51,460 bases of DNA from Acidobacteria bacterium 5-1 (GTDB lineage Bacteria; Acidobacteriota; Blastocatellia; Pyrinomonadales; Pyrinomonadaceae). The DNA is taken from positions 1 through 51,460 of the forward strand of contig MWZA01000168.1 of assembly GCA_002050455.1 (NCBI GenBank). Direction: 5' to 3'. This document shows positions 21,481-28,060 of this stretch, piece by piece. A model generated the notes under the pieces. The model did no database searches, was not told where the DNA came from, and saw only the letters and a program-made list of their open reading frames with translations. Within the stretch, counting starts at the first letter, position 1. Each line of letters begins with the position of its first letter. The translations under genes and the position numbers were made by a program.

Positions 21481-21597
21481 AGTTATTCTTTTGATAAAAA
21501 AATTTGGTGTCAGGATGTTTTAATTTTACCGGAAAAACTTGTTTTTTCCAATGAGATTTTGCTTCATTTTGCTATTAGCAGTAAATTTCCATATTTT

Positions 21598-21745
21598 TCA
21601 AAAGGCGTATCCAACTAATGCCCATTGAAAAGAAGAGATAATTATTAGTACAAAAAAACCAATCCCGTTGCCCCACCAACTATTAGCAAAAGATGGAACT
21701 GCATTAGTTAGCGGAGAGAAAATCAAGCCACAAAATAATAGAGAA
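21598..21745 (-). pseudogene. C-terminal scrap of a membrane protein
   Basis: On the reverse strand the last about 35 codons before a stop at 21598 read as a plausible membrane tail (NSWWGNGIGFFVLIIISSFQ then WALVGYAF). Upstream of about 21745 the same frame becomes a low-complexity shadow of the opposite-strand gene. This suggests the 3' end of a gene cut off at about 21745. Family not recognised; could also be chance. Confidence 0.3.
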
Positions 21746-21919
21746 GGCGTGTCGGCGGATGAACTTCTCGGAAGAGAAACGAACAAGCCGAAAGCCAGAG
21801 CGACGGGCAAAGTCCAACAACTGTTTGAAGAAGTCTCCGCCCTGCCGCGTCGCCAGCAAGACAAAGTAGTCGAGTTCGTCTCCGCCTTTGTCCGCCAGCA
21901 ACAGCAAGCCGAAAAGTAA
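21746..21919 (+). pseudogene. C-terminal fragment of an XRE-family HTH regulator
   Basis: The residues GVSADELLGRE, then KVQQLFEEVSALPRRQQDKV and a VEFVSAFV tail, match the part that follows the helix-turn-helix in XRE-type regulators (the dimerisation tail). The DNA-binding half is absent: the open frame reaches back to a TTG at 21668, but those residues (KDGTALVSGEKIKPQNNRE) are not HTH-like. The break falls at about 21745, exactly where the reverse-strand membrane remnant also begins. A truncated, probably non-functional relic. Confidence 0.6.
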
Positions 21920-21951
21920 AAGCTCATTCAATAAAAATAGCTTATGATCTT

Positions 21952-22490
21952 TTAGAGATTTTCTTTCATCCAATCTTTCCACCAGAGTTGTATCTTCTCT
22001 CTATTCTTGCGCTTTTCAACGTAAGTAAAGTAAGCATATATTCCCCGTGTTTCCCACTGTTTTTTAACATCATCAGGTAGTATTTCTTCAAGAGGCTCAT
22101 TGGTGATTCTATGAAGCATAAATACGGCGGCATCACCAACTCTAAATTCGTGGATGTGTGGAGCTTCTCTTGGGTCGAGCATTAAAGTAACATCCATGAT
22201 TTTTTCCACAAGACAAGGAATGCCTCTCGTCCTTTTTCCTTTAACCCGTCATAAATGGGATCGCCTGCTACCTCAGCTTTATTGGGCATTCTTTTGAGTT
22301 CGTATAACTTACTACATAATGCAGTAACATCATCCACGGAACGCGACGTATTATCATTTTGCACTTCAGGTTTCACAGATTTTTTGTTCAAACCTTCATT
22401 CATCCCATTTTCAGATGTAGCTGAAACGCAGGATGAATTTGTTCCAAACGTTATTACACAAATAATCGCAATAAAGAATATTTTATTCAT
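21952..22490 (-). pseudogene. Exported protein of unknown family, frameshifted
   Basis: Two overlapping reverse-strand frames read as one protein. The first (22490 down to 22182) has a signal sequence MNKIFFIAIICVITFGTNSS followed by Cys, so it may be a lipoprotein, then SVDDVTALCSKLYELKRMP and PIYDGLKEKGREA. The second (ending 21952) carries on with PCLVEKIMDVTLMLDPREAP, VGDAAVFMLHRI and an aromatic C-terminus. One missing base near 22218-22222 explains the break: with an extra A the join reads GREAIPCLVEKIM. Without the shift the first frame ends 11 residues later in an unrelated tail. No function is recognised. Confidence 0.6.
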
Positions 22491-22545
22491 AATTTAAATT
22501 GTTATCCTATAAAATAAGAACTTAACTTTATTTAATCCACTGATA

Positions 22546-22640
22546 TGGTCAAGTGAATCAGGACACAAAACTCATGCTGCTGCTTTTATTTTTATTTTTA
22601 ATTTTCAATTCCTTTTCAAATTCCATTGGGCTTTTGTATA
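22546..22640 (-). mobile_element. Terminal scrap of an IS3-family element
   Basis: On the reverse strand this encodes YKSPMEFEKELKIKNK ... and a stop at 22558, matching the C-terminus of IS3-family OrfB (the 'GYKSPMEFE' end). It is followed by a candidate terminal inverted repeat starting TGTCCTGATTCACTTGACCA. The rest of this element is missing: it ends exactly at the inverted repeat of the next IS and does not resume on its far side. Confidence 0.6.
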
Positions 22641-22707
22641 TACTGCTCCCCGCTAAGACAAACTGAATTCAGAGCGAGTATTCTAACAATTTGGGAGAAT
22701 ACTTTTT

Positions 22708-22977
22708 ATGGGAAAAGGCAGAATTTGGACTTCTGAAGAGAAGGCGAAAATCGTTGTTCAAGGTTTGAAAGGTCGCGCCGTATCTGAGATTTGCAACGAG
22801 TATCAGATTCATCAAACGCAGTATTACAAGTGGCGCGAGCAGTTTTTAGAAAACATTCCGAAGGTCTTTGAGACTAAGGCGCAATCCAAAAAGGAAGAAC
22901 GGCTGGAGCGGGAGAATCAGAAACTGAAAACGATGGTCGGCGAGCCCGCGATGGAACTTAAAAAAAACGATTGGTAA
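22708..22977 (+). CDS. IS3-family transposase OrfA
   Basis: An 89-residue protein. The N-terminal helix-turn-helix (WTSEEKAKIVVQGLKGRAVS then EICNEYQIHQTQYYKWR) binds the IS ends. The C-terminal leucine-zipper-like helix (EERLERENQKLKTMV) is for multimerisation. GGGAGAATAC precedes the ATG. Near its 3' end lies an A8 run with the slippery heptamer A-AAA-AAC at 22962-22968, from which a -1 shift would give the OrfAB fusion transposase. Confidence 0.9.
   Translation: MGKGRIWTSEEKAKIVVQGLKGRAVSEICNEYQIHQTQYYKWREQFLENIPKVFETKAQSKKEERLERENQKLKTMVGEPAMELKKNDW
22962..22968 (+). promoter_or_regulatory. Programmed -1 frameshift site A-AAA-AAC
   Basis: This lies in frame in orfA just before its stop. 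A -1 slip leads directly into RLVKPHRRRSAMTEEAD of OrfB, which has no good start of its own before this point. This is the normal way IS3 elements make OrfAB. Confidence 0.65.
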
Positions 22978-23765
22978 AACCGCACCGTCGGCGAAGCGCG
23001 ATGACCGAAGAAGCCGACCGAGCGGTTTTGCCAGTTATCCGGCAGCTCAAAGCAGAGCATCCGTTTTGGGGTTATCGAAGAGTTTGGGCGTATTTGAGGT
23101 TTGTCGAGCGGCGGCAAATCAACAAAAAGCGTGTTTATCGGCTGCTTGGTGAAAACGGGTTGCTCGTCACAGGTCACGAGAAACTAAAAGCTCGGAGAGC
23201 AGTCAGCTAGTCGAAACCGCGTCCCTCAAAACCAAACAATTGGTGGGGCGTGGATATGACAAAGGTGCCGACTGCGGAGGGTTGGGCATATTTGGTGGTC
23301 GTTAATGATTGGTTCACGAAGAAGATTTTGGGAGCGTTTGTCGGGAGTCGCGTCTCCGCCGCCGATTGGCTCGAAGCGATTAATCAAGCGGTTTGTCGGC
23401 AGTTTCCACAAGGCATTCGAGAGGATGAAAATCTGGAATTGAATCTGATGAGCGATAACGGCAGCCAGCCGACATCTTTGACTTTTATGCGCGAGTGCCG
23501 CGCTCTCGGCATCCGGCAGGCGTTCACCGCTTACGCCAATCCAAAGGGTAATGCTGATACCGAACGCTTGATTCGCACCATCAAGGAAGAACTCTGCTGG
23601 CTGCAGGAATGGTCGTCGGTCAAAGAGTTGGCAACGGAGATAGAGAAGTTTGTTGAGTATTTCAACGAACAATATCTGCATTCGGCAATCGGCTATAAAA
23701 CGCCGAATAAGTTTGAAAACCAATGGTTCGAAAATAATCAAATTACTCTCTCTGCGACAGCTTGA
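22971..23765 (+). pseudogene. IS3-family transposase OrfB (DDE integrase) with amber codon
   Basis: The frame encodes the HTH_21 region (RQLKAEHPFWGYRRVWAYLR then INKKRVYRLLGENGL) and the rve/DDE integrase core. First Asp in WWGVDMTKV, second in MSDNGSQPT, catalytic Glu in NADTERLIRTIKEE; the end is YLHSAIGYKTPNKFENQ. It is interrupted by TAG at 23208-23210, between KARRAVS and SKPRPSKPNNWWG, just before the catalytic domain. Everything else is intact, so the mutation looks recent. Translation restart at the ATG at 23250 would give the core minus the first strand and DNA-binding part. Confidence 0.85.
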
Positions 23766-23845
23766 TTAATGGGGAGCAGTACATTGGCAAACTCCTTTTC
23801 TAAATATTCAAAATCTGCTAGACTCTACCCAAAACAAATTCTCAA

Positions 23846-25996
23846 ATGTTCAGAGAAGGTCAACAAATCGGCAGTTACACTCTCATCCGCAAACTTGGTC
23901 GTGGTGGTTTTGGTGAAGTGTGGCTTGCTGAGCGCAAATCTAAATTCGTAACAACAAAGGTCGCAGTAAAACTTCCTCACGATGAACAAGTAGACCACGA
24001 AGCCATAAAATCTGAAGCCATTCTGTGGGAGCAAGCAAGCGGTCATCCTAACGTGCTGCCAATTATTGACGCTGACGAATACGACGGGCAAATCGTCATT
24101 GTGAGCGAGTATGCGCCAGATGGCTCACTAGAGGAACTAATTGACGAGGTAGGCACACTTTCGATAAGAAGAGCTATTGAATTTACCATTGGGATATTAA
24201 GAGGGTTGGAATTTCTGCATTCCCGCAAAATAATTCACCGAGATATAAAGCCTGCAAACATTCTGCTTCAAGGGGATACGCCCCGTCTTGCAGATTTTGG
24301 CATATCGCGGGTGATGAAAACTACAAGCGTAAGTGTCAACATTGGCGGAACCCCTGTTTACATGGCTCCCGAAGCTTTTGACAGGAAAAGAACGGCACAA
24401 ACGGATATATGGTCAGTCGGTGTGATTTTGTATCAAATGCTCAAAGGAAGTCTCCCTTTTCCATATATCAATTTTACTGATTTGCTGGGTGCGCTCTTTA
24501 GGGAAGAACCACAACCATTTCCTGAATCAATTCCAATAGAATTACAAAAGATTGTTTTAAAAGCTTTAGCTAAAAAACCAGAAGAACGTTATCAAACCGC
24601 CAGAGATATGCGGAAAGATTTAGCGGATTTCCTAATCAGAATATCGCAGCAAACTATAGAGCCGACGGTAATCAATAATCAACTAGCGGAAACATTTTTG
24701 CCATATCAGCAGTTAAATAAAACCGAAGCCAGTTCAATTTCAGATTCATTCAATTCCTTAGCCACACCAAAAGAGCGAGATATTAATCAAACACAAGCAA
24801 GTCCGACAATGAAAAGTCCTAATCCAGCTCCAAATATAGGAGAAGAAGGGTTAGGCAAATCATATTCTTTTAATGAAATACTGGAATTGCCGAAAATTAA
24901 ATTTCAAAGAAAGTCAAAATATCGAATCGTCAAAATTTTATTGCCGGCAGCAGTTTTGATTTTGTTAATTGCAGGCGGGTTATTTTACTTAATCTATAAA
25001 CAACAAATTAAGGAAAGTGAAACTTCAAATCAAATAACAGAGCAATCTCCTAACCCCAATCAAACAACAGAACAAACATCTTCAATCAATGAAGAGGCTC
25101 TAAAGTTTATTCCGTATCGTAAAGGCGATAAGTTTGGCGTTATTGATATAAACAGGAATGTAATTGTTGAGCCTAAATATGATTTTATGTATCCATTTAG
25201 CGAGGGGTTTGCAAGTGTAATGCTTAGAAATAAGGCGGGATTTATCGACCAGACGGGAAAAGCAGTCATTCCTATGAATTATGATAGAGTATTTATATTT
25301 TCGGAAGGTATTGCAAGAGTTGCAGCTAAGGGTAAATGGGGAGCAATTGATAAATTAGGCAACGAAGTCATACCTATAAAATTTGAAGAGTTACACCACG
25401 AATGCAGTGAAGGGTTGATAGGGGCGAAACAAAACGGCAAATGGGGCTTTGTCGATACAAGGGGCAATATAATAGTGCCGTTTGTATATGAGAGTATTAA
25501 TGATTTTGGCGAAAATTTAGCGGCAGCAAAGCTAAAGGGTAAATGGGGGTTCATAGACAAATCGAATCGTGTAGTTATTCCTTTTAAATATGAGAATAGA
25601 ACAATGTTTCGAGAGGGTTTAGGAGGCGTCAGCCTAAACAATAAATGGGGTTATATAGACAAAACCGAGGCACTGATCATTCCGTTCAAATACGATTCGA
25701 TAAATAGTTTTAGTGATGGGTTAGCTGGCGTGAGACTTAACAATAAATACGGCTTTATTGATAGGACAGGGAAAGAAATCATTCCATTTAAGTATGACGA
25801 TACAACAGGTTTTTCCGCAGGTTTTGCTCCAGTAAAATTCAATGGGAAATGGGGAATTATTAATAAGGTCGAGGAAGTTATTGTGCCTTTTAAATATAAA
25901 GAGATGAGCTTTATTTTCGATGGGTTAAGTTTGGTCAAGCTCAAAAACAAAGACTTCTGGATTGATGTAAATGGAATGGAATATTATGAACCATAG
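23846..25996 (+). CDS. Membrane Ser/Thr protein kinase with WG-repeat sensor domain
   Basis: 716 residues. Kinase domain about 8-270: glycine loop GRGGFGEVW, VAVKLPHDE lysine, catalytic HRDIKPANIL, DFGISRV, and GGTPVYMAPEAF, all intact, so it should be active. A Ser/Thr/Asn/Gln-rich linker leads to one membrane helix (about 366-386, AAVLILLIAGGLFYLIY). The external part (about 425-716) holds eight WG repeats of about 35 residues (W/F-G-x-I-D ... G-x-x-V/I-I-P-x-K-Y-D ... F-x-E-G-L/F-A) plus a partial ninth. WG domains are thought to bind ligands or proteins, so this looks like a transmembrane receptor kinase. Its start lies 64 bp after the IS. A HEPN-CBS gene follows by 37 bp. Confidence 0.9.
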   Translation: MFREGQQIGSYTLIRKLGRGGFGEVWLAERKSKFVTTKVAVKLPHDEQVDHEAIKSEAILWEQASGHPNVLPIIDADEYDGQIVIVSEYAPDGSLEELIDEVGTLSIRRAIEFTIGILRGLEFLHSRKIIHRDIKPANILLQGDTPRLADFGISRVMKTTSVSVNIGGTPVYMAPEAFDRKRTAQTDIWSVGVILYQMLKGSLPFPYINFTDLLGALFREEPQPFPESIPIELQKIVLKALAKKPEERYQTARDMRKDLADFLIRISQQTIEPTVINNQLAETFLPYQQLNKTEASSISDSFNSLATPKERDINQTQASPTMKSPNPAPNIGEEGLGKSYSFNEILELPKIKFQRKSKYRIVKILLPAAVLILLIAGGLFYLIYKQQIKESETSNQITEQSPNPNQTTEQTSSINEEALKFIPYRKGDKFGVIDINRNVIVEPKYDFMYPFSEGFASVMLRNKAGFIDQTGKAVIPMNYDRVFIFSEGIARVAAKGKWGAIDKLGNEVIPIKFEELHHECSEGLIGAKQNGKWGFVDTRGNIIVPFVYESINDFGENLAAAKLKGKWGFIDKSNRVVIPFKYENRTMFREGLGGVSLNNKWGYIDKTEALIIPFKYDSINSFSDGLAGVRLNNKYGFIDRTGKEIIPFKYDDTTGFSAGFAPVKFNGKWGIINKVEEVIVPFKYKEMSFIFDGLSLVKLKNKDFWIDVNGMEYYEP

Positions 25997-26033
25997 ATGG
26001 TAAAGACTTATCCCAAAATCCGAAAACTAAAAT

Positions 26034-26804
26034 ATGAGCATTATTTTATCTTGCGAGCAAAAAATATATTTTCGGGATTTGTTTCGCCAAGCCAGAGCAA
26101 CAGCCTTAAGTAATGCTGAAAACTACGGCGAGTTACTTTTTTCTTTAGAAAAATTAGGAAACTGTTTGCGCGGAGAAACAAGTGCTGTTGGAAGTCTAGG
26201 AAATTACAAAGAGAAAATTTGTGAGTTGGCTTCTAAATCTTGTTTAGCTGAAGGAATCTCAAAGGATTGTTCAGAATTTCACACTTCCTTTTCTTCACTT
26301 TATGATTATGTTACAGATGCTAGAAATTCTGTAATGCACGAAGGCGCTTTTGCGCGTCACTTAACTCAACATGCAATCGAAATCTCAATCATTTTGGAGG
26401 ATGCTTTAATGAGCGAAGAGAAACAAGTAAAAGACTTTATGGTTAGAAATGCAGTCTGCGCTGCTTTATGGCAACCAATAAGTTTTCTCAGGCAAAATAT
26501 GCTCCTAAATTCATATTCTTATTTACCTGTTTTCAATGAAAATCAGTGGCACTTAATTTCTGATTTTGCAATTACAAAATATCTTAAGCGAACAGAAGGC
26601 AAGGAAAAACGAAGAAGACTGTCTCGAAAATTAGAAGATACGCTTGAATTAGGACAACTCGAAATTACTTTGGCTGAAACTGTCAAGCCAGAGTATTTTA
26701 TAAACGAACTTCTTAAAGGAAATTGGAATGGATTACCTCTTTGTGTAGTTTCTGAAAATTCAACTGAAATTATTGGAATTTTAACTCCTTTTGATTTGTT
26801 ATAA
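26034..26804 (+). CDS. HEPN-like domain fused to a CBS pair
   Basis: 256 residues. The all-helical N-terminal part (about 1-125) ends with DARNSVMHEGAF: R97-N-x3-H102 is the Rx4H active-site motif of HEPN RNases. After it come two CBS-like units: about 133-185 (VKDFMVRNAVCAALWQPISF ... YLPVFNENQWHLISDFAI) and about 215-256 (VKPEYFINELLKGNWNGLP ... EIIGILTPFDLL). CBS pairs bind adenine nucleotides, SAM or cyclic dinucleotides, so a nucleotide-gated RNase is a reasonable inference. A basic patch (KEKRRRLSRK) separates the two. It follows the kinase by 37 bp, probably in one transcript, and its 3' end overlaps the convergent FG-GAP gene by 6 nt. AT-rich compared with the core genes. The HEPN call is by motif and helicity, not by database. 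Confidence 0.65.
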   Translation: MSIILSCEQKIYFRDLFRQARATALSNAENYGELLFSLEKLGNCLRGETSAVGSLGNYKEKICELASKSCLAEGISKDCSEFHTSFSSLYDYVTDARNSVMHEGAFARHLTQHAIEISIILEDALMSEEKQVKDFMVRNAVCAALWQPISFLRQNMLLNSYSYLPVFNENQWHLISDFAITKYLKRTEGKEKRRRLSRKLEDTLELGQLEITLAETVKPEYFINELLKGNWNGLPLCVVSENSTEIIGILTPFDLL

Positions 26805-27737
26805 CTGTCCGAGTGTTTGAGATTGGAGTTGTCCGTCGCTGCTTCTGATGGCATAAAACGTCAGGCTGCCCGGTCGCCAGAGTGCGATGTCAGCCTTTCC
26901 GTCGCCGTCGTAATCCGCCGGTGCAGGCACATCGCCGTTTTGTCCGAATTGCTGACTCGTCATACCCAATGAGCTTCGCTGGATATACCAGTAACCGTTC
27001 GCCGGACGGAAGACTGCCGCATCCGTCTTCCCATCTCCGTCATAATCAGCTTGCGCCTGCTGGTCGGTTTGTGCGCCGAAATAGAGTTCAATCGTATAGC
27101 CGTTACTGCTGTTGCTGATATACCAATAGCCATTGGCGGGGCGAAACACCGAAAAGTCGGTCTTCGAGTCGCCGTCATAATCTCCGGGAACAGGCGTGTC
27201 GCCTGCTCCGCCCCACAGAAAGGAAGTTTGCTGCGAGCCTTGTCCGCCCAAGACATACCAATATCCGGTTGATGGTCGCCAGACCGCCAAATCAGCCGGA
27301 GGCGCGGCAGAGGCGTTGGCATCTTCAACCGCCAGCATTCTGCCTCCCGCATAAATATATTCTTTTGAGAGTTGCGGTGCGGCAGTCGGCTCGACAAATG
27401 GATTGAGACTGCCGAGCCAACTTTGGTTTTGACTTTTGGCATTATTTGGCGAGGTAGTATTTGCCGCTTGCTGCTTTTGTGCCGCCTCTTCCAGATATTT
27501 GAGACCTGCGCCAAACGCGCCGAGCGAGAGCAAGACAATCAATCCGATAACCCACCAATGCGACGAATTCTTAATATAAGACCGCCAACCGGCTTTGCTT
27601 GCTTGGCTTGGTTCAATGGAATGAGCAGTATCGCTCGCTTCACCTATCTGCTTTGCCGCCGCTCGCTCGACGGTTGATACCGCTAGTCCTAACTCAATCG
27701 GAGTCATTCGACGCTCGCTTGTTTTGTTCTTTGACAT
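26799..27737 (-). CDS. FG-GAP-like repeat membrane protein
   Basis: 312 residues. A cytoplasmic N-terminus (about 60 residues, with TPIELGLAVSTVERAAAKQI) is followed by one helix (WWVIGLIVLLSLGAFGAGL), then a Gln/Asn/Ser/Pro linker. The segment EYIYAGGRMLAVEDANA looks like the end of an RHS-type repeat protein. Four repeats follow, of the type A-D-x-A-V-W/F-R-P-x-x-G-Y-W-Y, three of them preceded by the calcium-binding loop DYDGDGKTD. This repeat family is common in Acidobacteriota surface proteins. The C-terminal repeats should lie outside the cytoplasm. The 5' leader holds a 182-bp folded element that ends 41 nt before the start. Confidence 0.8.
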   Translation of the reverse strand: MSKNKTSERRMTPIELGLAVSTVERAAAKQIGEASDTAHSIEPSQASKAGWRSYIKNSSHWWVIGLIVLLSLGAFGAGLKYLEEAAQKQQAANTTSPNNAKSQNQSWLGSLNPFVEPTAAPQLSKEYIYAGGRMLAVEDANASAAPPADLAVWRPSTGYWYVLGGQGSQQTSFLWGGAGDTPVPGDYDGDSKTDFSVFRPANGYWYISNSSNGYTIELYFGAQTDQQAQADYDGDGKTDAAVFRPANGYWYIQRSSLGMTSQQFGQNGDVPAPADYDGDGKADIALWRPGSLTFYAIRSSDGQLQSQTLGQL

Positions 27738-27778
27738 AACTTTTACTCAACTTTACAATCCAATTTTCCGCACAAAAA

Positions 27779-27960
27779 AACCGACAAATTATTAAATCTA
27801 ATAAAAAGAATTACTGCTCCGTCAGCTTTCGTAAAAGCTGAGCAAGACACAGCTTGCCAAACTGATTGACACGGCTCGGAGTCAATCAGAAAATTCTTTT
27901 ATGTTTGGTCAACCTCGTCGGTTGGCGGGGATTTGCACCCTTAGATTTTGTTTGTCGGTT
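27779..27960 (-). other. 182-bp folded element bounded by inverted repeats (riboswitch-like RNA or MITE)
   Basis: This fills most of the 323-bp gene-free stretch 27738-28060. The outer stem pairs 27779-27788 with 27951-27960 (10 bp) and 27794-27801 with 27941-27948 (8 bp). Inside are hairpins 27823-27829/27834-27840 (loop CGTA), 27842-27846/27853-27857, a perfect 9-bp 27862-27870/27881-27889, and 27910-27914/27920-27924 (loop of 5). The reverse strand also has GGGTGCAAATCCC. Read leftwards it is in the leader of the FG-GAP gene, and a T7 run follows the closing stem. No known riboswitch class was recognised. The rest of the stretch shows nothing. Confidence 0.5.
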
Positions 27961-28060
27961 GTTTGGGAAAAGAAATTGGAGCGATGGTAAAGTATCCTAA
28001 AATCCATGTCAAGCAGAAAACAATGGTTTGGATTACTTTAACAAAAATAATTTTGCACGG

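Follow-up and report, generated by a model that had tools for sequence, protein, structure and literature searches.

HEPN dimers cut RNA, and CBS pairs, which bind adenine nucleotides, usually sense AMP, ATP or SAM. HEPN is also used by Csm6 and Csx1. Both kinds of part are combined in a single protein in the anti-phage system DS-11 (DeWeirdt, Mahoney and Laub, Science 2026; PMC13092281), whose defence was lost when the HEPN catalytic residues or the CBS residue Y157 (Y157A) were mutated and whose ligand is unknown (PMC13092281). HEPN-CBS and HEPN-CBS-HD fusions, e.g. alr3009 and gi 118580987, were reported by Anantharaman et al. in 2013, and nucleotide-regulated RNA decay or cleavage was proposed for the HEPN-CBS fusions (PMC3710099). 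The window, the whole stretch of 51,460 nucleotides analysed here, contained a gene of this kind at 26034..26804 on the + strand, with an ATG start and a TAA stop, which was defined from the list of ORFs and from full-length homologues. Its ORF was intact, with in-frame stops immediately 5' of the start, and encoded a protein of 256 amino acids that consisted of a HEPN domain (residues 1-127, 26034..26414) and a CBS pair, or Bateman module (residues 128-256, 26415..26801).

The predicted catalytic Rx4H of the HEPN domain, R97-N98-S99-V100-M101-H102 (26322..26339, + strand), was located at the junction of helix 3 and helix 4, and both the position of this motif and the coordinates of the ORF were as claimed in the earlier note. 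On its own, an R-x4-H motif was weak evidence for HEPN: shuffles of the window protein contained R-x4-H in 23%, R-x4-6-H in 54% and RN-x3-H in 1.3%. Alignment of the homologues showed that R97, N98 and H102 were invariant in 48 of 48 members from about a dozen phyla, as were residues E39, G42, G104, R108, E122, R153, L157, P165 and G248. The family therefore has the Rx4-6H motif of the HEPN superfamily, in which the Arg is followed by a polar residue (here N98). Position 99 was occupied by Asp in 46 of the 48 members and by Ser in the window copy, which, with S99 instead of Asp, may be weaker or altered.

The full-length AlphaFold2 model, calculated from a 38-row alignment (A2), had a pLDDT of 94.2 and a pTM of 0.84. 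The HEPN half was also modelled separately (pLDDT 90.2, pTM 0.84) because the VIA-align list of the whole model was occupied by CBS chains; it contained helices at residues 7-26, 32-46, 55-66, 86-98 and 105-126. No match of the HEPN domain was significant in Foldseek alone (E at least 0.9). When its 599 candidate chains were realigned against the HEPN-only model with VIA-align, ranks 1-12 were all HEPN domains or HEPN-like, with Z values from 9.4 (8xeh) to 6.9 (2q00), and the best clearly unrelated bundle had a Z of 6.1; these values were modest for a helical domain, yet separated from the unrelated bundle. The 12 matches included HEPN-MNT toxins, AF_0298, the sacsin HEPN and a nucleotidyltransferase-like protein. 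No curated Pfam HEPN model was above its cut-off for the family, and the profile of the HEPN half gave chance matches only against the PDB sequences. Single members had sub-threshold Pfam matches to HEPN_RiboL-PSP (0.002), DUF4145 (0.006, 3 of 35) and HEPN_Apea (0.05). The missing Pfam match only means that the family lies outside the described HEPN families and does not decide membership of the superfamily. Because the list of structural matches was uniformly HEPN, the motif lay at the helix 3/4 junction and three Pfam HEPN families were weakly matched, the N-terminal half can be firmly assigned, as modelled, to the HEPN superfamily. The HEPN-type N-terminal domain of the earlier note was thus borne out by the predicted structure, in which the HEPN topology was found, by the VIA-align list and by the conservation of the motif.

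In the C-terminal half of the window protein, Pfam detected one sub-threshold CBS stretch (residues 226-256, 16.3 bits against a cut-off of 24), and a sequence search of the PDB gave a weak CBS match. All ten members of the first alignment matched PF00571 (best 5e-8), and the profile matched PDB CBS proteins at 1.4e-9. The structure of this half was similar to those of AcuB, DarB and MJ0922: residues 130-256 of the model matched solved CBS pairs, of which AcuB was the best (Z 13.8, rmsd 2.7 Å over 115 residues), and the closest matches included AcuB with AMP/ADP/Ap4A. These profile and structure searches, which had been suggested together with the claim of two CBS-like units, confirmed both units. 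Residue Y161 (26514..26516, + strand) in the segment MLLNS-Y-SYLPV was the counterpart of Y157 of DS-11 in the BLASTP and hhalign register and was predicted to contact the adenine. This position was aromatic in all 48 aligned members (Phe in 46 and Tyr in 2), and a further pattern was found in the second CBS repeat, with S/T251 in 47 of 48 and D/E254 in 48 of 48. NCBIfam matches to ornithine decarboxylase (0.0045) were weak and were judged to be due to chance.

A comparison with DS-11 revealed shared parts in a different arrangement. The NCBIfam model NF053863 (DS11_antiphage, "CBS domain-containing anti-phage protein") had weak contact with 7 of 10 members of the window family, which scored 11-16 bits (at most 15.8) on CBS repeat 1 only, whereas the DS-11-type protein of E. 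coli KE47 scored 404.9 bits. This E. coli copy came from the plasmid collection, and a DNA search for DS-11 in E. coli genomes found nothing. In the KE47 protein the CBS pair (133-240) was followed by the HEPN domain with RNDVMH at 330-335, giving the order CBS-CBS-HEPN; the window family had the reversed order, HEPN and then CBS, and was without the additional N-terminal segment of DS-11. Membership of the family in DS-11 was excluded by scores of ≤16 bits against the cut-off of 260 and by the opposite domain order. Common to both were the construction as one protein, the CBS pair, the HEPN RN-x3-H and the occurrence on mobile DNA. BLASTP of the window protein against the E. coli DS-11 aligned only RNxVMH and ML-x-x-YS-x-LPV, in swapped order. 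The tyrosine of the latter motif was residue 157 of the KE47 protein, which we infer to be the published Y157, assuming equal strain numbering, so that the aromatic at the adenine-contact position would be Y157 in DS-11 and F/Y161 in the window family. Comparison of the profiles matched the CBS halves of the two with 96% probability (E 4e-9, hhalign), and the HEPN halves over 45 columns ending in RNDxMH with 78%. By analogy, the family likely works like DS-11, sharing both kinds of part, but lies outside the definition of NF053863. A DS-11 homologue above the cut-off (365 bits) was found in a genome of the same class as the window (G067, L067:1489-2538), so both domain orders are present within this class. 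Two haloarchaeal plasmids encoded short CBS-HEPN proteins without the N-terminal segment of DS-11 (L080:2022-2783 and L108:1965-2732), the former of which scored 109.5 bits to NF053863, below the cut-off; they are possibly an archaeal branch of DS-11.

The other known systems were less close in different respects. The fusions of the 2013 survey resemble the window family in having HEPN joined to CBS; alr3009 was filed under Swt1-like HEPN and some of the fusions carry HD, and one or more of them may belong to the window family. Csm6, Csx1 and Can1, like the window family, couple nucleotide sensing to nucleic-acid cleavage, but their sensor is CARF instead of a CBS pair. No CARF match was found with Pfam in the window protein, the sensor half of which was structurally CBS, and no CRISPR genes were recognised in the annotated neighbourhoods; a CARF or CRISPR linkage was set aside for want of support, and the analogy to Csm6 and Can1 had rightly been limited to logic. 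The closest solved HEPN folds belonged to the HEPN-MNT toxin-antitoxin systems (8xeh, 7ae6 and 5yep; Z 8.0-9.4, 6-12% identity), whereas in the window family no MNT adenylyltransferase partner was recognised and a CBS pair was fused instead. The remark in the earlier note that this was not a described family held for the libraries, since neither the HEPN models of Pfam nor any model of PADLOC or NCBIfam matched above threshold and PADLOC contained no model for the family, but not for the concept, which was known (PMC3710099, PMC13092281). The HEPN-first, CBS-second family appears to be undescribed in the libraries and literature searched; the supplementary tables of DS-11, outside this scope, may list it.

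Homologues were sparse and widely scattered. A copy with 46% identity was found in one of 96 related genomes, and tblastn revealed plasmid-borne homologues in Burkholderia, Cupriavidus, Acidovorax and Deinococcus, which were 28-35% identical and aligned with 80% or more of the protein. The phage records contained no match to the window protein. Single-sequence scans of the genome and viral contigs found no relatives, which were detected there by the profile alone: the ten-member profile A1 identified 44 loci in one-per-species genomes and two loci in the viral-contig data. The phyla with A1 loci included Acidobacteriota, Chloroflexota, Armatimonadota, Cyanobacteria, Verrucomicrobiota, Planctomycetota, Binatota, Methylomirabilota, Latescibacterota, Pseudomonadota and others. 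In Acidobacteriota, the phylum of the window, the family was present in 4 of 396 genomes. In the tree, the window copy was placed with the Herpetosiphon copy (98/82) and a row from Armatimonadota, apart from the copies of its own taxonomic family, and this conflict between tree and taxonomy suggests horizontal transfer. With its plasmid copies, an islet absent from a relative of the window and a tree at odds with taxonomy, the family is sparse and mobile. The homologue in a Verrucomicrobiales MAG (L039:2903-3676) was split into two frames, by decay of the copy or by an assembly error.

An all-against-all comparison of the neighbours of the homologues revealed no conserved partner gene, so the HEPN-CBS protein probably acts alone. 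Several copies adjoined genes of phage defence. In Deinococcus sp. QL22, the start of the HEPN-CBS gene was located within the final 13 bp of hsdR. In another genome (G098), the gene followed a Mod methylase at a distance of 20 bp. This methylase was type III-like, with Mod and EcoP15I as its matches in the PDB, and the locus also contained a DUF262 protein, a gene without a PDB match that was named by eye as a putative helicase/Res and, at a greater distance, an integrase. In Cupriavidus, HmaC (1459 bits) was found near the gene and Shedu was annotated about 7 kb upstream, and in Acidovorax a PLD-domain gene was found upstream. At 1e-10, 150 neighbour proteins matched 240 PADLOC models, among them those of type I and IIG R-M, DrmMII, DpdF, MzaA and PsyrT, whereas 149 background proteins matched 47 models, and the 25 of these that were listed were kinase-type models and mad2; as the background came from one phylum, the family loci were mostly betaproteobacterial and redundant models instead of proteins were counted, this is a contrast and not a statistic. 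Some members lay amid housekeeping genes. Downstream of the Herpetosiphon homologue, a helical-looking protein with an RNDFVH motif (L027:7789-8520) was perhaps a second HEPN.

Since the relatives were scattered across phyla and plasmids and several adjoined phage-defence genes, the protein is probably a one-gene anti-virus switch. We consider it fairly probable that the family is a stand-alone, horizontally spread anti-phage effector, a one-gene RNase gated by an adenine nucleotide, in which the RNase activity, the ligand and the protection are predicted. The idea of a ligand-gated RNase in the earlier note stands up, and its mechanism is likely by analogy; catalysis, dimerisation and ligand binding are inferred from the fold and from the described systems. 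The protein would be inactive in the healthy cell and would dimerise by contacts of both its HEPN and its CBS parts, which would bring two RN-x3-H motifs together in a composite RNase site. Infection, or the failure of a neighbouring restriction system, would alter an adenine-type nucleotide, for which AMP, ATP, an Ap4A-like molecule or a phage-induced derivative are candidates. The ligand would dock by F/Y161 and by S/T251-x-x-D/E254 of the second CBS repeat and realign the HEPN dimer, and the resulting RNA cleavage would halt translation and phage growth through dormancy or death, sparing the neighbouring cells. In some lineages the protein would perhaps serve as a back-up to restriction.

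The main rival of this proposal is ordinary energy-state sensing without a role in defence. The protein could be a nucleotide- or energy-sensing RNase, or a HEPN RNA-binding regulator, for general stress, in which the CBS pair reads AMP/ATP and the HEPN domain tunes RNA stability. The usual ligands of CBS pairs and the presence of nucleotide-bound AcuB among the closest structures were consistent with such a function, as was the copy next to mutS2 (L010/L022). The same logic was proposed in the 2013 survey (PMC3710099). However, a very sparse, mobile and plasmid-borne family with R-M neighbours was unlike a housekeeping regulator, and DS-11, built of the same parts, protects from phage (PMC13092281). 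We therefore regard a general stress function as unlikely.

The genes around the window copy suggested another explanation. The gene lies in a variable islet of about 6.5 kb (21565..28047), which, in BLASTN of L087 on the window, was replaced by about 57 bp in a relative (G007); in this relative the flanking proteins were 95-96% identical, and nth and the M16 peptidase gene were adjacent. The islet was either inserted in the window lineage or lost in the relative. It also contained, upstream, an element of the IS3 family at 22638..23784 (+ strand), recognised from its ORFs and from its terminal inverted repeats (I11), which were imperfect. The second transposase frame of the element was broken by a stop near 23208; the element is probably inactive, judging from this interruption. 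At its 3' end, the HEPN-CBS gene overlapped by 6 bp, tail to tail, with an FG-GAP/VCBS-like repeat gene, named by eye (26799-27737, - strand). A Ser/Thr protein kinase with eight C-terminal WG repeats in Pfam, an unusual sensor kinase, was encoded at 23846..25996 (+ strand), 37 bp upstream of the HEPN-CBS gene. The two genes shared a low G+C content of about 0.36-0.38, compared with 0.42-0.48 further out. They could be a two-gene unit, in which the kinase-WG protein would detect the trigger and would restrain the HEPN-CBS toxin or phosphorylate it. The common strand, the short gap, the common G+C of about 0.36 and the location in one islet agreed with this arrangement, and the kinase domain matched kinase models of defence systems. 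These PADLOC matches were unspecific because the random background set matched the same models, and no conserved adjacent kinase was found in the homologues, so that such a unit appears improbable. A HEPN fold without catalysis, in which the window copy or the whole family would be decayed or would serve as a scaffold with no enzymatic role, might be suggested by S99 in place of a near-universal Asp and by the interrupted transposase nearby. This is very improbable, since the window ORF was intact and R97, N98, H102, E39, G42, G104, R108 and E122 were retained in 48 of 48 members over a large divergence.

The case for an anti-phage RNase is stronger for the family than for the window copy, because the latter carries S99 and no defence gene was recognised beside it. 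More tentatively, with a chance slightly below even, the family would be a second HEPN-CBS immune RNase that was assembled separately from DS-11 in the reverse order. It would respond to an adenine nucleotide that infected cells make as a common danger signal and would act, in several lineages, as a suicide back-up in R-M operons. If it is true that two families fused CBS and HEPN in opposite orders and kept one aromatic contact, a general signal of infection is the probable ligand, and the question of which adenine derivative activates DS-11 could be tested in a comparison of two unrelated sequences. The about 50 homologues, including those of the cultivable Burkholderia, Cupriavidus, Acidovorax and Deinococcus, would provide material for the question of whether R-M operons carry suicide modules that are gated by nucleotides.
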